55,101 nucleotides of DNA from Candidatus Scalindua sp. SCAELEC01 (GTDB lineage: Bacteria; Planctomycetota; Brocadiia; Brocadiales; Scalinduaceae). Where the stretch lies: positions 1-55,101 of the forward strand of contig SHMT01000033.1 in NCBI GenBank assembly GCA_004282745.1, in the 5' to 3' direction. The notes under the pieces were generated by a model. The model had not been told where the DNA came from. It did not search any database and saw only the letters and a list, made by a program, of their open reading frames with translations. The position numbers and the translations under genes are program-made. Each line of letters begins with the position of its first letter. Positions within the stretch are counted from its first letter, which is position 1. Positions 9,622-49,568 of this stretch are shown here, piece by piece.

Positions 9622-12018
9622 TCAACTCTCCAGCATAGCGAGTACCGATCCTGGTTTGATTAACTGCTCCTCTTTGGTCTCCGCACGTTTGAGGTTAATC
9701 CAGCGGCTTACCATAAACCAGACGAGGGGGAATACTCCGCCAACAACAAAGACCAATACACCGAGGCTCCGGAACCAGGTAAACATCTGGAACGTTGAGG
9801 TTTCAAGGAAGGCCTGCGAACGTGCATATGCATATCCATCGGTCATGGCAACCACCAATTGATGGACTCCAACGGGAAACAGATCCATGGCAACCATGAG
9901 CATAAGGCCTATATTCATGGACCAGAATGAAGTGCGGAGGAGTTTCGCATTCCATCGGTCTGGTCCGATATTCCAGCGACCACAGAACAGCATGGCTGCA
10001 ATTGCCAAATTCCCATAGACACCGAATAGCGCAGCGTGTGCATGATTCACCGTTAAATAAGTTCCATGTTGGTAGTAGTTCACGATTGGCAGGTTAATTG
10101 CCAGGCCAAAGACGCCCGCACCAAAGAAATTCCAAAAGTTGACGCCGATCAGGAACAGAAAAGGGGTGGAGAGTCCGAACGTAGCGTGAGAACCCTCTTT
10201 TTTCTGCAACTGGTAGAAGGTGCTTTCGGGTATCTTTCGGAAACGCCAGGCAGAAACCGTTAATAGGATGAGAGGCGCAACCTGGAGGCTCGAAAGTACT
10301 CCTCCCAGGGCAATTGTCTCAATCGATTTAGCGTTCCAGTAGAAATTGTGAGCGATACCAACCAAACCTGAACCCAGAAAGAGGATGGATGCGAGGTAAA
10401 CCGTTTTTGCTGCCATCCGGTGAGAAATAAACCCCATGAGATACATAAAATAGGCAATGATAATCGTAGTGAGCACTTCGAAGAACGCCTCAACCCACAT
10501 GTGAATTGTGCACCACCGCCAAAAGTCAGCGATAACAAAGTTCGTATCCGGACGCGCAACGAACGATGCCGTAAACATAAAGATGATGCCGGCGATGGCA
10601 TAGACTAACCAGTTTGGGAGTGACCACGACTGCTTTAGCCGTAAGACTGGCCATAGACCACGCATGACAATAATAAGCCACACGACAAATGAGACGAAAA
10701 GGACGATGTGATAGAGTCTGCCGATGGTAAGAAATTCCCAACCTTGCAGACCGAACCATCGCCATCCTGCACCCTCACCAAGTATTCCCTTGATTCCCAG
10801 CGGGATTCCTATTGTTCCCCCTACTGCCACAAAGATAAGCATCCAAAAGAAGGTGTTTACGCAGGTAAGTTGGCCGGACGGTTCAGGTCGGCTGATCAGT
10901 GGTAAAACCCAGATCGTTGCTGCAAACCAACAGACGGCGATCCAGAGTACAGAGAGCTGAGAATGCCAGGCCCGCGTTATCGTTACCGGTAATAGATGGT
11001 TAATCTCGATTCCCATACTGGTAAAAATGCCCATAAAATCGATGATTGTTAACAGGCCGGCAAAAACCTGTATCATGAATAGGAGAGCGGCTACGGCGAA
11101 AAACTTGTAGGTCGCCAGCTGTGTCGATGTTGGTCGGTATTTATCGACTATGTCGGTTGTTGCCAAGGGAGGCAGTTTTCCCTTTTGCTGTTTAAACTCA
11201 GTATCCTGGTCATCCTTGCCATAATAATAGAACATGATGCCGACCGAAAGAACCACAGCAAGGACTCCAATAACGCTCCAGAGCACCAATCCACCGTGTG
11301 GCAGGTTGCCCGCCAGCGGATCGTATGGCCAGTTGTGCGTATAGCTGTATTGGTGGCCGGGTCTCTGCGCGCCGCAAATCCAACCACCCCAATAGAAGAA
11401 TGCCGTTAGCTGCCGAATCTTCTCTTTGTCAGTAATATAATTTGCTGGCTTGAATTGCTCAACACCGACCAATTCTCCACCCTCTTCAAACTTTTGAGTA
11501 TTATATTCCACGAATAGATGAAAGGCGCGCACTTGAGCGTCTGTGAGTGTAACGGCTCCGGCGCCATATTTACTCTCTTCCGTAATACCTCTGTTGGCAT
11601 AATAGTCGACATCGAATCGGTTATTTTTTATCTCTTTCTGGACAAGCGCCTGTACAACGGCTTTTCTTGTTTCATCATCGGGAGCTCTCTCCTTCCATCT
11701 CTTGTCATGAAATTCATTCATCCAACGTGCGGTAAGGTTAAGGGCCTCTCCCGTAAAATCAGGACCTCGTAGACCTCCGTCCCCCAAGAAACTGCCGTAA
11801 TCCATCAACCCGTAACGGAAGAAGACATCCTGACCTCCGATAATGTCTTCCGCTGAGAAGACAAGACGACTCTCCTCATCGACAAAATCACACATGGGTG
11901 GCGCATATTTGTAGGTTTTATATCCAATGTATCCCACTATGCTTACGCTTAGGGCTAAGATAATTATAAAGATCTTCCACCAGTGTTTCCGTTGATCCAT
12001 AAATCTCGATGCACTCAT
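9622..12018 (-). CDS. qNor-family protein with NO-dismutase-like active site
   Basis: Membrane protein of 798 residues built like quinol-type nitric oxide reductase: an N-terminal helix, a periplasmic domain to about 240, then about 13 helices of the heme-copper oxidase fold. Heme-ligand histidines appear conserved (His352 in WHSQL; His659 and His661 in NHAHA). At the non-heme iron site His506 and Glu510 (HMWVE) and His557 are present, but the next residue is Asn558 (GIAHNFYW) where qNor has His (GHHYYW). The helix that carries the quinol-binding His and Glu in qNor reads LLTIIDFMGIF, so both are missing. These changes match what is described for putative NO dismutases (2 NO to N2 + O2) of Methylomirabilis. 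A divergent NO reductase with another electron donor is the alternative. It has AAGGAGG upstream and no operon partner. Confidence 0.8.
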   Translation of the reverse strand: MSASRFMDQRKHWWKIFIIILALSVSIVGYIGYKTYKYAPPMCDFVDEESRLVFSAEDIIGGQDVFFRYGLMDYGSFLGDGGLRGPDFTGEALNLTARWMNEFHDKRWKERAPDDETRKAVVQALVQKEIKNNRFDVDYYANRGITEESKYGAGAVTLTDAQVRAFHLFVEYNTQKFEEGGELVGVEQFKPANYITDKEKIRQLTAFFYWGGWICGAQRPGHQYSYTHNWPYDPLAGNLPHGGLVLWSVIGVLAVVLSVGIMFYYYGKDDQDTEFKQQKGKLPPLATTDIVDKYRPTSTQLATYKFFAVAALLFMIQVFAGLLTIIDFMGIFTSMGIEINHLLPVTITRAWHSQLSVLWIAVCWFAATIWVLPLISRPEPSGQLTCVNTFFWMLIFVAVGGTIGIPLGIKGILGEGAGWRWFGLQGWEFLTIGRLYHIVLFVSFVVWLIIVMRGLWPVLRLKQSWSLPNWLVYAIAGIIFMFTASFVARPDTNFVIADFWRWCTIHMWVEAFFEVLTTIIIAYFMYLMGFISHRMAAKTVYLASILFLGSGLVGIAHNFYWNAKSIETIALGGVLSSLQVAPLILLTVSAWRFRKIPESTFYQLQKKEGSHATFGLSTPFLFLIGVNFWNFFGAGVFGLAINLPIVNYYQHGTYLTVNHAHAALFGVYGNLAIAAMLFCGRWNIGPDRWNAKLLRTSFWSMNIGLMLMVAMDLFPVGVHQLVVAMTDGYAYARSQAFLETSTFQMFTWFRSLGVLVFVVGGVFPLVWFMVSRWINLKRAETKEEQLIKPGSVLAMLES

Positions 12019-42134: not shown

Positions 42135-44570
42135 TTGAGAGAGAAACATGCCTGTTGTATGCATTGCGGCACAACTATTTTTGATTCAGATAGGGAAAAA
42201 ACTGTTTATCATGATAATGGCGATATGTTTTGTTGTTGGGGGTGTGAAACGGTATATGCGATTCTCAGAAGAGAGAAATTTCCCTTAATAAACTCACCTC
42301 ATACCAATCCTGCTGAGTTTGAATTTTTAGACAGTGAATCTTTTTGTAAAGAATACCTTGTTTCTGTTGATGGGAGAGAGGGCATGCGTTTCTTTGTAGA
42401 AGGTGTCCAGTGTACGGCCTGCCTTTGGATAATTGAGCAGATTCCTCATTGGATTCCTCAGGTTGAGAGCGTTCATATTAACATGAGCCAGAAAACCCTG
42501 TTTGTTTCTCTGGAAAAGCCGGGTTATTTCGGAAGGGTGGCATCCACACTATCTGCCTTGGGCTATCGAGTCATTCCCATTAAAAGCCTTGATGAGGCGA
42601 GGCATTTCCAGAAGAGAGAGATCCATCAACAGTTAAGGAGACTTGGCATTGCGGCAGCTTGTGCCGGAAATATTATGCTATTTTCTCTCTCCCTCTATTC
42701 GGGACTAAAGGGACAATTGGCTACCGTGTTTGAATACCTCAATCTTGCTTTTTTTATCCCCATACTTCTCTACTGTGCACAACCTTTTTATCTTAGTCTA
42801 TGGCGATCATTAAAGGCCCGGCGCCCAAGTATTGATCTTCCCGTTGTGGTTGCCATTATTATTGGTTTTGTCTTGAGTCTCTATAACCTCATTTCCGGAA
42901 TCGATGATTACTATTTTGATTCCCTGTCACTGCTCATAGTCTTACTCCTGGCGAGTCGGTATTTATTGAGTAAGACTCAACAGACCTTTATCAGCAGTTC
43001 ATATTTGCAATCATTTATCGAATCACAAGTTTGCAAACGCTGGAATAGTGAAAACCGTATGTATGAAAAAATTCCTGCAAGACTGTTAGCAGTCGGAGAT
43101 AAAATCCTTATACATGAAAGGGCGCGTATTCCCGCAGATGGCGTGGTCGTCAACGAGTTCGTAAATATAAATCCTGCTATTCTCACAGGAGAAAGCACCC
43201 CGCAAAAACTCTTTCAAGGTTCGGAGATCTATGCAGGAACTGAGGTTGTCTCTAACGTAGCGGAAGTCTTGGTAAAACGTACGCCGAGTGACAGCAGAAT
43301 TGGCCAAATCCTCAAAAAGGTTGAAGAGCAGATTGGTAATAAGACGCCCTTGATTTCATTAACGGACAAAGCGTCCCAGTACTTTAGTGTCTTTATTATT
43401 CTTGTGGGAACTCTCTTCTTCCTGTTTTACTTCAGGATTGATTCTGATGAAGCGGTGAAACGTTCACTCGCCTTGATAATCTTGGCCTGTCCGTGTGCCT
43501 TGGCCTTTGCGACACCGTTAACACAAAGTTTGTCGCTGAGAAAGGCGTCAAAAAAAGGTTATTTGATCAAGAATGCCGAATCCTTTGAAAAATTAAGCGG
43601 TGTTAAAAATGCCTTTTTTGATAAGACCGGAACTCTTACTCAAGGAAAATTTGAGTTTTTACGGTGGAGATCCCCCCGTTTAGAAGATGAAAATAATTTT
43701 TCACCTGATCAGGAGACACGAAATGCCATATACTCTATCGAACTAAATTCTCCTCATCCAATTGCACGAACGCTCGTGCGGCATCTTGAAAATAGCACGG
43801 TAAAAAGAGTACCGGTTGTCTCCCTGAAAGAGATACCCGGTTCCGGAATCTCGGGAGTTGTCGATAAGAGAGCGTATACCATTAAGGCCGCTGCGGCCGA
43901 TGAATATGTGAGTGATGATTCGGACATCATATCCAGTGTGACGGCTATCTATAGAGACGACGATATCGTGGCATACGCATGCTTTGGAGACAAGCTACAG
44001 AGTGATGCAGTGCGTACGGTTGCTCGTTTGCAAGAGATGGGGATAAAGTCATATATTTTGTCTGGAGATGGGGAAAGTCCCGTTTCTCGCGTTGCAAAGA
44101 GACTTAACCTGGAGAATGAACAGATAAAGGCTGGTCTATTTCCGGAGGAGAAGAATGAAATTATTCAAAAATTTCCTCACTCGGTTATGGTGGGAGATGG
44201 CGCAAACGATTCGCTTGCCATGTCTTCTGATGCCATTAGCATAGCCGTTCAAGGAAGCGCCGAGGCAAGCTTGGTTGCCTCTGATATATACGTAACAAAG
44301 GGAGGTCTCTTTCCCGTGATGGACCTGATCCTCTTAAGCAGGAACACCTTTACCGTTATTAAGAGAAATCTCGTTTTTTCCTTTACTTATAATTTTGCGG
44401 GTGGTTTGGCTGCTCTACTGGGCTACATTTCACCGCTAACGGCGGCGATTTTAATGCCCATAAGCTCATTGACAGTCCTTCTCTCCTCTACTATAGGAAC
44501 GAAATTCTTGAGGAGTTTTGTGAACCCTTCTCCACAACCTGACCAAGTCAGAACCAAAAAAAGGGTATAA
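42135..44570 (+). CDS. ccoI: Copper-transporting P1B-type ATPase of cbb3 assembly
   Basis: Copper export ATPase (CcoI/FixI/CopA2 type) for supplying cbb3 oxidase. 811 residues. A Cys-rich N-terminus (CCMHCG and CCWGCE), an HMA domain with CTAC at 93-96, eight predicted helices, the CPC metal motif at 452-454, phosphorylated Asp496 in DKTGT, and GDGANDS. Starts at TTG 42135, eight bases after GGTGGAG; no ATG is available nearby. It leads the cco locus, followed by ccoS. Confidence 0.9.
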   Translation: MREKHACCMHCGTTIFDSDREKTVYHDNGDMFCCWGCETVYAILRREKFPLINSPHTNPAEFEFLDSESFCKEYLVSVDGREGMRFFVEGVQCTACLWIIEQIPHWIPQVESVHINMSQKTLFVSLEKPGYFGRVASTLSALGYRVIPIKSLDEARHFQKREIHQQLRRLGIAAACAGNIMLFSLSLYSGLKGQLATVFEYLNLAFFIPILLYCAQPFYLSLWRSLKARRPSIDLPVVVAIIIGFVLSLYNLISGIDDYYFDSLSLLIVLLLASRYLLSKTQQTFISSSYLQSFIESQVCKRWNSENRMYEKIPARLLAVGDKILIHERARIPADGVVVNEFVNINPAILTGESTPQKLFQGSEIYAGTEVVSNVAEVLVKRTPSDSRIGQILKKVEEQIGNKTPLISLTDKASQYFSVFIILVGTLFFLFYFRIDSDEAVKRSLALIILACPCALAFATPLTQSLSLRKASKKGYLIKNAESFEKLSGVKNAFFDKTGTLTQGKFEFLRWRSPRLEDENNFSPDQETRNAIYSIELNSPHPIARTLVRHLENSTVKRVPVVSLKEIPGSGISGVVDKRAYTIKAAAADEYVSDDSDIISSVTAIYRDDDIVAYACFGDKLQSDAVRTVARLQEMGIKSYILSGDGESPVSRVAKRLNLENEQIKAGLFPEEKNEIIQKFPHSVMVGDGANDSLAMSSDAISIAVQGSAEASLVASDIYVTKGGLFPVMDLILLSRNTFTVIKRNLVFSFTYNFAGGLAALLGYISPLTAAILMPISSLTVLLSSTIGTKFLRSFVNPSPQPDQVRTKKRV

Positions 44571-45253: not shown

Positions 45254-47401
45254 ATGGGGGAGGGACAGGGAATAGACTCTTCGGATGTTCGGAGTTCAGG
45301 GTACATTCAGATAACATACGATGATACGATAGTCAGGTATTTCGTTTTGGCGACACTATTCTGGGCGACGATTGCTTTTTTGGTCGGTTTGTTCGTAGCG
45401 CTGCAGATGTCCGTATGGCAACTGAACTTCAACATAAGCTGGTTAACTTTTGGACGTTTAAGACCTCTACATACAAATGCCGCGCTCTTAGCATTTGCCG
45501 GAAATGCGATTTTTGCGGGGATCTATCACTCAACGCAGAGGCTATTGAAGACAAGACTTTTTTCCGACGATCTGAGCAGACTGCATTTTTGGGGATGGCA
45601 ATTTGTTATTGTTTTGGCATTCATTACCTTGCCTCTGGGGTTTTCTCAAGGGAAAGAGTACGCGGAACTAGAATGGCCAATTGACATTGGGATTGTTTCT
45701 CTTTGGATTGTCTTTGCCATCAATTTCTTTGGTACCTTAGCGATTCGTAATGAAAAGCATATGTATGTTGCTATTTGGTTTTACATAGCGACTATTGTCA
45801 CGGTTGCTGTCTTATACGTCGTTAATGCCATTAGTATACCCATCAGTCTGTTTAAGAGTTACACGATCTATGCCGGTATTCAAGATGCTCTCATTCAGTG
45901 GTGGTATGGGCACAATGCGGTTGCATTTTTCCTGACTACACCGTTCCTGGGTTTGATGTATTATTATCTGCCCAAGGCTGTCAATAGACCGATATATAGC
46001 TATCGTTTATCAGTTGTCCATTTCTGGTCTCTCGTTTTTCTCTATATCTGGGCAGGGCCTCACCACCTCTTAAATACGGCGCTACCTGAATGGCTTCAAA
46101 TGTTGGCCGTAATCTTCAGTATAATGTTGTGGGCACCGAGTTGGGGGGGGATGGTTAATGGACTCTTGACCCTGCGTGGTGCATGGCATCTATTACGGAG
46201 TGATCCGATCGTCAAATTCCTGGCTGCAGCGATAATTTTTTATGGTATGGTGACTTTTGAGGGTCCACTCTTGTCAGTAAAGTCGGTAAATTCTCTCGGT
46301 CACTTTACCGACTGGATTGTGGGACATGTCCATTTGGGAACACTAGGGTGGAATGGGTTTTTGACTTTTGGCATAGTCTATTATATCGTTCCGAAGTTAT
46401 GGAAGACGGAATTATTCAGTATAAAAATGGCGAATATCCATTTTTGGCTCGGAATCCTGGGCATACTCTTCTACTACGTTTCTATGTTGACGGCTGGGCT
46501 TACTCAGGGGCTTATGTGGCGGGCTTTAGATACAAACGGTCGACTGGTCTACCCCGAATTTGTTGAGACCGTAATCCGTATCATTCCGCTCTACTATTTT
46601 CGTGCGTTTGGAGGTGGATTATTTATTTCTGGCTATGCTCTCTTACTCTATAACGTTTATAAGACGATACGATTCTCTCCTGGAGTTTCAGATGAGACAG
46701 TGCAAGTAAAAGAGGCATCCTTTGCCATTAAACCTACAGAACGGGGGCATAGAAGACTTGAGGGGATGGTCTTTGCATTTACTATTTTGGCCTTCGTTGC
46801 TATTGCGGTAGGTTCAGTTATTGAAATCGTTCCGAGTCTCTCAGTAAATAAATATGTACAGATGGAGAAGGGAGTTGATCCTTTTTCGCCTTTGGAAATT
46901 GCAGGAAGAGACATATACATAAGAGAGGGTTGTTACGCGTGTCACTCACAAATGATTCGCCAAGGGCAGACGGAAACTCTCCGATATGGAGCGGTGTCGA
47001 CAATTGAAGAATCTCTGTATGACCGCCCTTTTCAGTGGGGGTCTAAGCGTACGGGACCTGATATAGCGAGGTTGGGAACGAAATATCCCGATCTCTGGCA
47101 CTACATGCACATGGAAGATCCCAGATCTGTTGTAACCGGATCAATTATGCCTGCATACCCCTGGTTAATCTCATCAAAAACTGATTTCACCCGTCTGAAG
47201 GAGAAGATATCGCTTTTTCATAAACAGGGGGTTCCTTATACTGAGAAAGAGTTAGAGGAGTCGAATACGGTAGCAAAAGAGCAGGCCCAGGAGATTGCAG
47301 AAAGACTCAAGGCGCAAGGGGTACATGAAGACGTCGCAGATAAGGAAATAACCGCTTTGATAGCATACCTGCAGGCACTTGGACAGAAGGGGGGGCAGTA
47401 A
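45254..47401 (+). CDS. ccoNO: cbb3 cytochrome c oxidase, fused CcoN-CcoO subunit
   Basis: 715 residues joining catalytic CcoN and the monoheme CcoO in one chain. CcoN, about 1-475: His73 (heme), His220 in WWYGHN with HH 270-271 (CuB), the tyrosines YSY near 248-250, and His358/His360 in GHVHLG (hemes). CcoO, about 500-715: a membrane anchor then heme motif CYACH at 560-564 with the typical SQMIRQG and WGSKRTGPDIAR. Terminal O2 reductase with high affinity. AAGGAG stands before the ATG; first gene of ccoNO-Q-P-G. Confidence 0.95.
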   Translation: MGEGQGIDSSDVRSSGYIQITYDDTIVRYFVLATLFWATIAFLVGLFVALQMSVWQLNFNISWLTFGRLRPLHTNAALLAFAGNAIFAGIYHSTQRLLKTRLFSDDLSRLHFWGWQFVIVLAFITLPLGFSQGKEYAELEWPIDIGIVSLWIVFAINFFGTLAIRNEKHMYVAIWFYIATIVTVAVLYVVNAISIPISLFKSYTIYAGIQDALIQWWYGHNAVAFFLTTPFLGLMYYYLPKAVNRPIYSYRLSVVHFWSLVFLYIWAGPHHLLNTALPEWLQMLAVIFSIMLWAPSWGGMVNGLLTLRGAWHLLRSDPIVKFLAAAIIFYGMVTFEGPLLSVKSVNSLGHFTDWIVGHVHLGTLGWNGFLTFGIVYYIVPKLWKTELFSIKMANIHFWLGILGILFYYVSMLTAGLTQGLMWRALDTNGRLVYPEFVETVIRIIPLYYFRAFGGGLFISGYALLLYNVYKTIRFSPGVSDETVQVKEASFAIKPTERGHRRLEGMVFAFTILAFVAIAVGSVIEIVPSLSVNKYVQMEKGVDPFSPLEIAGRDIYIREGCYACHSQMIRQGQTETLRYGAVSTIEESLYDRPFQWGSKRTGPDIARLGTKYPDLWHYMHMEDPRSVVTGSIMPAYPWLISSKTDFTRLKEKISLFHKQGVPYTEKELEESNTVAKEQAQEIAERLKAQGVHEDVADKEITALIAYLQALGQKGGQ

Positions 47402-47403
47402 GC

Positions 47404-47574
47404 ATGAAACAGCAAGCACTTGCTCATTTTACCGATAGCTATTTAATTGTTATTGCATTCTTTCTCTTTTTTTCGGTCTTCCTCGGTTATATCGTGTGGG
47501 TGGGCAGAAAAGGTTCGAAAAAGCATTATGACTACTTATCTCAACTTCCATTTCATGAGGAGGATCCCACATGA
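47404..47574 (+). CDS. ccoQ: CcoQ-like small subunit
   Basis: 56 residues between ccoNO and ccoP: one membrane helix (YLIVIAFFLFFSVFLGYIVWVG) followed by a polar tail. Size, position and topology match CcoQ/FixQ, which stabilises the oxidase complex. The stop overlaps the ccoP start by four bases (ATGA). Confidence 0.8.
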   Translation: MKQQALAHFTDSYLIVIAFFLFFSVFLGYIVWVGRKGSKKHYDYLSQLPFHEEDPT

Positions 47575-48152
47575 GCCAACCAGAGACATCTGATCTTCAA
47601 GACCGCGTGATAGAGGGTTATGAATATGATGGAATTACCGAATTTGATAATCCTTGCCCTAAGTGGTTGATGTATATTTTCTATTTTACTCTCTTATTGG
47701 CTATCTTTTATCTGGGACACCATTTTGGACGCATGAGTTCCGAAGTGAAAAGGATCTCTGTCTCTGTGAAGGAGGAAGAGCAGGATCGAGCGCAGGATCT
47801 AGAAGAGGTACCGGTGATTGAAGAAGCCGCCCTTGTCACGCTCTTGCAAGATCCGGAAACTTTGGCAGCGGGGAAAGAGATCTATGATGATAAATGTGAT
47901 TTGTGCCACGGAGACGCGGCGGAAGGCCTCATTGGACCTAATCTGATAGACGACTGGTGGCTGCACGGAAAAGGGACAATCAGTGATATCGCACACACCA
48001 TCAGGTACGGTGTCGCAGAAAAGGGTATGGCTTCGTGGGAGGGGAGAATTCCAGAAGAGTGTATTTTTCAAGTAGCCGCGTACATTAAATCCTTAAAAGG
48101 GACATCATCAGATAATCCAAAAGAGCCTGAGGGTGAATTGGTAGAAGAGTAA
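47571..48152 (+). CDS. ccoP: CcoP-like subunit with a single heme
   Basis: 193 residues. An N-terminal GYEYDGITEFDNPCPKWLMY segment, exactly as in CcoP, and a membrane helix. It has only one heme motif, CDLCH at 109-113, followed by AAEGLIGPNLIDDWW, typical of the second CcoP heme domain. Usual CcoP has two heme domains, so this is a reduced form. Accepts electrons for CcoN. Confidence 0.88.
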   Translation: MSQPETSDLQDRVIEGYEYDGITEFDNPCPKWLMYIFYFTLLLAIFYLGHHFGRMSSEVKRISVSVKEEEQDRAQDLEEVPVIEEAALVTLLQDPETLAAGKEIYDDKCDLCHGDAAEGLIGPNLIDDWWLHGKGTISDIAHTIRYGVAEKGMASWEGRIPEECIFQVAAYIKSLKGTSSDNPKEPEGELVEE

Positions 48153-48155
48153 AAA

Positions 48156-49568
48156 ATGGAGAATAATATGTATAAACTGTCGAAAGATGGTGTTCGCTTA
48201 GCTCGGCATCCAATGGCAGTGCACGGATTTTTCAGTAGGTATAGAACCCTAACTCGCTGGATCCTGATCTCTCTCTTCTTTCTGCTACCCTGGATAAAAG
48301 TAAACGGTCTTCCCTCCATCCTCATCAATATACCGGATCGAAGATTTACATTTTTCTGGATGAGTTTCTGGGGGCATGACGCACCGCTCTTTTTTTTTGT
48401 TTTGGCGAGTTTTACCCTGGGACTTCTCTTTGTTACATCAGCCTGGGGGAGAGTCTGGTGCGGTTGGGCTTGTCCACAGACGATAGGTATCGACGGTATT
48501 TTCCGACAGATAGAAGTACTCGTAGAAGGCAATCATACCGCGAGACTGAAGCTTGATAGGGTGCCTTTTGACAGAGAAAAAATAGTAAAAAGATCCACAA
48601 AATGGTTCCTCTTTATCTTAATGAGCTGGCTTGTTTCCCTCACCTTTTTGTCCTATTTTATCAGATCTGAGGATTTGATAACCATGGTGGTCTCTCCTCC
48701 TCATGAAAATTGGATACCGTTTTTGATTACAACCGTAATTACGCTTGTTGTCGCTTTTAATTATTGTTGGTACCGAGAACAGTTTTGTACTGACGTATGC
48801 CCTTATGGAAGACTCCAATCGGTGCTGATGGATGAAGATTCCATTACGGTAGTGTATGATGAGAAAAGAGGTGAGCCGAGAAAGGGGAGGTTGCCTGAGA
48901 AGGGGAAAACAGGAGATTGCATCGATTGCTTTAAGTGTGTGGTTGTTTGTCCTACCGGAATTGATATTCGCCGGGGAATCCAGATGGAGTGCATTGCTTG
49001 TACTTCATGTATCGATGCGTGTAACGAAGTAATGCAAAAGGTAAAAAAACCGAAAGGCCTTATTCGTTACGATTCAGAGAATGGGTTAAAGGGGCAAAAG
49101 AGTCTCTTTTGGAGGATGAGGACGTGTGTTTATTTGGGATTATGCTTCTCCGCATTCATCGGTCTGTTTTTGTATGTTTACGGCCGATCGGATTTGGACG
49201 TCACCGTTTTAAGAGCGCATGAGAGACCTTATCAGGTGCTACATACATCACAAGAAATGACGCTCATTACAAACCATTTTAGGGTAAACCTGAAAAATCA
49301 AAGCTATGAGGAACTTGAAGTTGATTTACAACAAACTGAAGAGATGAAAGCGTCTGGAATAGACATTGTTGCATCAAAATTTCCTGAAACAGTTCAATTT
49401 GGAGAGACGATAGAAGACCATATTTTCATTAAATTCCCCCAATCGGTTCTGGATAAAAAGGGACAAATGACTTTTCAACTGCACATTGTGGCAAAATCAA
49501 AAAAGGGAAGAGAAACATTGAGAAAGGACATTCACCTTGTTGGACCTAGCAAACCAGTTATTGAATAG
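48156..49568 (+). CDS. ccoG: cbb3 assembly ferredoxin-like protein CcoG
   Basis: 470-residue membrane iron-sulfur protein (RdxA/FixG), proposed to reduce copper for oxidase assembly. Visible: WGRVWCGWACPQTIGIDGIF, FCTDVCPYGRLQ, and two 4Fe-4S clusters in CIDCFKCVVVCP and CIACTSCIDACN; C-terminal Ig-like domain after about 360. ATG 48156 or 48168 are both possible; GGAG fits the second. Four bases after ccoP. Confidence 0.9.
   Translation: MENNMYKLSKDGVRLARHPMAVHGFFSRYRTLTRWILISLFFLLPWIKVNGLPSILINIPDRRFTFFWMSFWGHDAPLFFFVLASFTLGLLFVTSAWGRVWCGWACPQTIGIDGIFRQIEVLVEGNHTARLKLDRVPFDREKIVKRSTKWFLFILMSWLVSLTFLSYFIRSEDLITMVVSPPHENWIPFLITTVITLVVAFNYCWYREQFCTDVCPYGRLQSVLMDEDSITVVYDEKRGEPRKGRLPEKGKTGDCIDCFKCVVVCPTGIDIRRGIQMECIACTSCIDACNEVMQKVKKPKGLIRYDSENGLKGQKSLFWRMRTCVYLGLCFSAFIGLFLYVYGRSDLDVTVLRAHERPYQVLHTSQEMTLITNHFRVNLKNQSYEELEVDLQQTEEMKASGIDIVASKFPETVQFGETIEDHIFIKFPQSVLDKKGQMTFQLHIVAKSKKGRETLRKDIHLVGPSKPVIE

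Follow-up and report, generated by a model that had tools for sequence, protein, structure and literature searches.

An Asn-type qNOR homologue in an anammox Scalindua genome is very probably a member of the putative NO dismutase family

The window analysed here, a stretch of 55,101 nucleotides, is a contig (C72) of a 4.59-Mb Candidatus Scalindua genome which also encodes hydrazine synthase alpha, in keeping with an earlier note that had called the genome anammox-type from the window sequence alone. An open frame with an ATG start and exact boundaries (9622-12018, minus strand) encodes a protein of 798 aa, in which Pfam recognised a COX1 core (9.1e-43) and a NorB_cytochrome_c-like domain (5e-38). 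Its best solved relative was the qNOR of Geobacillus (3ayf, 1.3e-133), and the frame and qNOR-type identity proposed earlier are thus confirmed. Site names were taken from PMC10256718 and PMC13087809 and transferred by alignment, with Gs and Ax denoting Geobacillus and Alcaligenes xylosoxidans numbering; the single residues below were placed in this way.

9622..12018, minus strand: gene of the 798-aa Asn-type qNOR homologue, very probably of the NO dismutase (NOD) family (frame, Pfam, structure match, trees)
11323..11886, minus strand: periplasmic cytochrome c-like domain without heme c, residues 45-232 (Pfam PF22085)
9754..11112, minus strand: heme-copper-oxidase core (COX1), residues 303-755 (Pfam)
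11041..11043, minus strand: Ile326, replacing the quinol-binding His (Gs His328 / Ax His305)
11029..11031, minus strand: Gly330, replacing the quinol-site Glu (Gs Glu332 / Ax Glu309)
10963..10965, minus strand: His352, heme b ligand, kept
10501..10503, minus strand: His506, FeB ligand, kept
10489..10491, minus strand: Glu510, kept (Gs Glu512 / Ax Glu490)
10348..10350, minus strand: His557, FeB ligand, kept
10345..10347, minus strand: Asn558, replacing the third FeB His (Gs His560)
10282..10284, minus strand: Gln579, replacing the proton-relay Glu (Gs Glu581 / Ax Glu559)
10042..10044, minus strand: His659, heme b3 ligand, kept
10036..10038, minus strand: His661, heme b ligand, kept
9757..9759, minus strand: Val754, replacing the quinol-binding Asp (Gs Asp746 / Ax Asp724)

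In cNOR (NorBC), heme c is carried by a separate subunit and NorB is about 450 aa long, whereas the window protein is a fused chain in which no CXXCH motif was found, with no NorC neighbour, and is thus not a cNOR. Its AlphaFold2 model (mean pLDDT 84.4, pTM 0.87) superposed on 3ayf over 734 residues (Z 42.2, rmsd 2.3 Å), so the qNOR fold is kept; at Z of about 40 it is common to the canonical qNORs of Geobacillus (3ayf), Alcaligenes xylosoxidans (8bgw) and Neisseria (8zgp). Over residues 551-610, Asn558 included, pLDDT was about 59-72 in ten-residue blocks, and metal geometry is therefore not fixed by the model.

With canonical qNOR the window protein shares the heme ligands, two FeB His, Glu512, Glu516, the NO-path Arg and the Ca-site Glu, but differs in His560→Asn, Glu581→Gln, the loss of His328, Glu332 and Asp746, His90→Asp and the change of the Ca-ligand Tyr93 to Leu. 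His506, Glu510, His557 and Asn558 all align as the earlier note had stated; the change of the proton-relay Glu (Geobacillus Glu581) to Gln579 is a second one that it did not contain. Glu514 (Gs Glu516 / Ax Glu494) of the proton path is also kept. The altered positions were compared between an Asn group of 59 proteins (17 query-type, 35 related and seven with the published NOD signature) and 23 canonical qNOR controls from Planctomycetota, Flavobacteriaceae and others. The third FeB position was Asn in 59/59 of the former and His in 23/23 of the latter, the Gln579 position was Gln in all 58 Asn-group rows with a letter there versus Glu in 23/23 qNORs, and His90→Asp was seen in 59/59 Asn-group proteins. 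Fixation of Asn in one group and His in the other, together with purifying selection on the gene (pN 0.10 versus pS 0.78 against its 82% orthologue), argues for more than chance. The nearest named relative is Candidatus Scalindua RBC_AMX3 (82%). Judging by the aligned ligands and the model, the protein is expected to carry heme b and heme b3 together with a non-heme metal coordinated by two His, one Asn and a neighbouring Glu.

The loss of canonical residues might also indicate a decayed, functionless qNOR, but the frame is intact, all heme ligands are kept, the same substitutions recur in 59/59 relatives and two lineages have been retained in Scalinduaceae; the selection signal in practice refutes decay, to which we assign a negligible probability.

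The helix LLTIIDFMGIF, which had been named as the quinol-ligand helix, agreed with the alignment, and the position of Gs Phe336 is Ser334. The earlier claim that no quinol-site residues are present was correct for the His, Glu and Asp, which are lost, and did not extend to Arg750 (Ax Arg720) and Trp748 (Ax Trp718), which are retained. In the qNOR of Persephonella, mutating the matching quinol-site His and Asp abolished activity (PMC13087809).

The hallmarks of NOD according to Ettwig et al. 2012 are one FeB His→Asn, one catalytic Glu→Gln and a lost quinol site; a change to Gln of a catalytic Glu near the centre is listed for putative NOD (PMC3413370), and the published substitutions comprise His328→Thr, Glu332→Arg and His560→Asn (PMC10286720). 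Retention of Glu510 (Gs Glu512) was considered as a strike against NOD and rejected, because 7/7 NOD-signature proteins keep Glu there and carry the Glu→Gln change at Glu581; for the same reason the hallmark Glu is probably Glu581. With this assignment, the aligned window protein is a match to all three published sequence hallmarks. The quinol-site quartet His328/Glu332/Phe336/Asp746 reads Ile326/Gly330/Ser334/Val754, and the fold is of the qNOR type, its cytochrome c-like domain carrying no heme c (Pfam, motif search and model versus 3ayf). The putative NODs of Methylomirabilis, strain HdN1 and others (PMC3413370, PMC10286720, PMC13386854), as well as Asn-type relatives from Bacteroidota such as Cecembia, resemble the window protein in having a qNOR fold without heme c and in falling in one clade, and the same NOD systems share the FeB His→Asn, the catalytic Glu→Gln and the lost quinol site. 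Differences were also evident: compared with NOD-signature proteins taken from whole genomes, the window protein shows 43-45% identity and lacks their three-residue deletion at the quinol helix. It has Ile at the His328 position, where they have Thr, Met or Ala, and Val at the Asp746 position, where they have Gly; its metal motif ends in HNFYWNAK, theirs in HNFYWIAK.

A scan of bacterial genomes with the window protein yielded 80 loci, with HNFYW in every copy covering the metal site and Glu512 kept. NOD-signature proteins or close variants occurred in five further genomes of a 141-genome phylum sample and at two of the 80 loci; none reached the cut-off in the Pseudomonadota and Flavobacteriaceae samples. 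In both maximum-likelihood trees, in which NOD rows were picked by the published Thr328/Arg332/Asn560 signature and include no named Methylomirabilis sequence, the Asn proteins formed one clade (support 100, and 100/100 with trait columns removed) with His-type qNORs outside. The window protein falls outside the NOD-signature cluster (Methylomirabilis/aquifer-type), on its own branch of 17 rows, mainly Planctomycetota plus Verrucomicrobiota (support 100). NOD-signature proteins were sister to the other Asn types in the first tree (96) and nested among them with weak support in the second, and a single clade of the other Asn types excluding the NOD-signature cluster was not rejected (p-AU 0.41). 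In the tree comparison suggested by the earlier note, the protein thus joins the NOD-signature proteins in the Asn/Gln clade and does not fall among quinol-oxidising qNORs, the placement that the note had named as refuting its reading; the NOD-candidate reading stands at family level, where hallmarks and clade placement agree.

Membership of the window protein in the putative NOD family is thus very probable in our judgement. Asn-type proteins of Bacteroidota and Cecembia have already been counted as NOD (PMC13386854), and two Cecembia loci (L058 and L060) group with the Asn-type proteins here. The window protein is accordingly a further member of a family already named NOD in print and is not unique: the earlier impression of a find unusual in itself did not survive the recovery of dozens of relatives, the family being common in Bacteroidota and Planctomycetota.

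Two relatives' loci carry tandem Asn-type genes of different branches, one NOD-signature-like and one of another type (L033 5570-9563; L071 7929-12936). The phage records searched held no relatives, plasmid matches were at most about 35% identical, and viral copies were limited to one fragmentary IMG/VR gene. The latter (L136 5968-7578, on the 231-kb contig IMGVR_UViG_3300035492_000331) is NOD-signature-like; its N-terminus is missing, as is the entire catalytic middle corresponding to query residues 439-610. The gene may have decayed, the assembly may be faulty, or the architecture may be new.

Among 62 Brocadiales genomes, the Asn-type gene was found in 11/17 Scalinduaceae versus 0/45 others, and canonical qNOR in none. 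The window gene is the only qNOR-type gene of its genome, and the term paralogue, used earlier in the sense of a copy beside a normal qNOR, does not apply. The window's branch occurs in two genomes of its genus (L102 and the window), while nine genomes of the neighbouring genus g158 carry a His328-keeping Asn branch instead (L103-L111), so that the two Scalinduaceae genera hold different Asn-type branches. A tree holding all Scalinduaceae copies together was rejected (p-AU 0.0001), leaving two separate lineages, for which two separate acquisitions are the simplest reading. A qNOR-type protein of the anammox genome of Candidatus Scalindua profunda, scal02135, was compared by annotation only and is annotated as a normal 'quinol-oxidising qNor' (PMC3655542). 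In the part of the literature covered, anammox bacteria were nowhere reported to carry NOD, although an earlier mention for Scalindua may exist.

With respect to a source of NO, no match to cytochrome cd1 nirS was obtained in the window's genome, and a NirK-like protein scores below the NCBI cut-off. In this genome, a family 1 encapsulin shell gene with a long N-terminal extension lies directly 5' of a NirK-like copper protein that scores below the NCBI cut-off (L167, G000:C28:24467-25348 and upstream), a pair that could possibly form a compartment-linked NO source.

Heme-copper proteins of the genome comprise the window protein, a cbb3 oxidase at 45254-47401 of the window and a weak ccoN-like protein. 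The functional link suggested earlier to this oxidase, 33 kb away, lost ground: a genome of the same genus (G233) has the gene and no cbb3 match, and cbb3 was not enriched in Scalinduaceae carrying the Asn-type gene (8/11 versus 3/6 non-carriers). As a separate observation, the oxidase has ccoN and ccoO fused in one frame (COX1 plus FixO), with a P-type ATPase upstream (42135-44570) and, after it, a ccoP-like gene (47571-48152) and ccoG (48156-49568); Scalinduaceae, along with some further Brocadiales, have frames of about 714-727 aa that match the same family. The weak ccoN/COX1 similarity is that of a 577-aa membrane protein with a C-terminal hybrid-cluster-associated domain (L157, G000:C22:42041-42508), matched by similar-sized frames in other Brocadiales. 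The window-protein model shares its fold with cbb3 oxidases (Z 28.4), and this, with the altered canonical catalytic parts, would be compatible with an O2 reductase, or a slow-turnover NO/O2 sink or sensor, rather than mainly an NO enzyme. Such a role appears improbable, though: NO reductases account for all of the protein's closest relatives in both sequence and structure, and some family members lie near NO-response genes.

The window gene stands alone among a nitroreductase, YbjQ proteins, an M48 protease and a lipoprotein hydrolase, the nitroreductase and hydrolase being common to the window and another locus (L002). No regulator or donor gene was seen among its neighbours, no conserved partner or donor gene near the Scalindua copies, and promoter and terminator scans gave signals near noise level. 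In 21/74 relatives' loci, two of them in the window's branch, a Rrf2-type regulator carrying a three-Cys motif was found ≤600 bp upstream, whereas no Rrf2 gene adjoins the two Scalindua copies of the window's type; the regulator scores under the NCBI NsrR cut-off and may be NsrR, which has been reported beside nod genes (PMC13386854). RIC-type genes, recognised by sequence, were present in 13 relatives' loci. Just downstream of the Asn-type gene, two planctomycete relatives have a short frame resembling 4Fe-4S ferredoxins (L004 11113-11559, L012 10372-10737), a possible electron donor.

These observations bear on the reaction catalysed. The window protein could be a detoxifying NO reductase (2 NO + 2 e- + 2 H+ → N2O + H2O) using another donor, or quinol at the outer Trp748 site, with Asn and Gln serving a changed affinity or rate. 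The electron-input half is intact (heme b with both its ligands, His352 and His661, plus Arg750 and Trp748), as would be expected if electrons still came in, the proton path retains Glu510 and Glu514, and the Rrf2- and RIC-type neighbours of some relatives fit plain NO detoxification, as does NsrR beside nod genes. A published field survey arguing that NOD-like genes follow N2O and are found together with N2O reductase (PMC5723336) was likewise counted against dismutation, and an O2-making enzyme would be odd in an O2-sensitive anaerobe. Against NO reduction stand the Glu581→Gln change and the missing quinol Glu and Asp, all of them clade-wide, the lack of a conserved adjacent donor gene and the absence of an adjacent Rrf2 gene in both Scalindua loci of the window's type. 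On balance NO reduction is a serious candidate, held at somewhat less than even odds.

Dismutation, 2 NO → N2 + O2, needs no outside electrons or protons. As the inner quinol site and one of three catalytic proton-relay Glu are lost, the window protein may have less need of either, which would fit this reaction. Further points in its favour are the single clade with NOD-signature proteins, where Asn558 and Gln579 are universal and from which the 23 canonical qNORs differ at both positions, the lack of an added donor domain or conserved partner gene, and the kept fold, purifying selection and presence in two separate Scalinduaceae lineages. No NOD-family member has been purified so far (PMC13386854). 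We slightly favour dismutation over NO reduction, and put the probability that 2 NO → N2 + O2 is the net reaction of the window protein at roughly 45%. It would act as a single-subunit membrane enzyme, with a pair of NO molecules binding at heme b3 and the metal and reacting largely without electrons from quinol. Since NO is an intermediate of anammox, the enzyme could serve as a relief valve for it, any O2 formed being removed by oxidases or flavodiiron proteins. The fuller proposition, that an anammox bacterium makes O2 in an anoxic cell by dismutating its own metabolic intermediate through an independently acquired NOD branch, is less likely than not.

Anammox bacteria run on NO and are inhibited by O2, and the formation of O2 from NO by NOD-family proteins has been in question since 2012. 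Highly enriched planktonic cultures of Scalindua can be obtained (PMC13253579), and with the Asn-type gene in 11/17 Scalinduaceae lacking a canonical qNOR, the NOD reaction would be testable with 15NO in enriched Scalindua. Furthermore, a 'qNor' label in an anammox genome, as in S. profunda, need not imply that N2O is produced.
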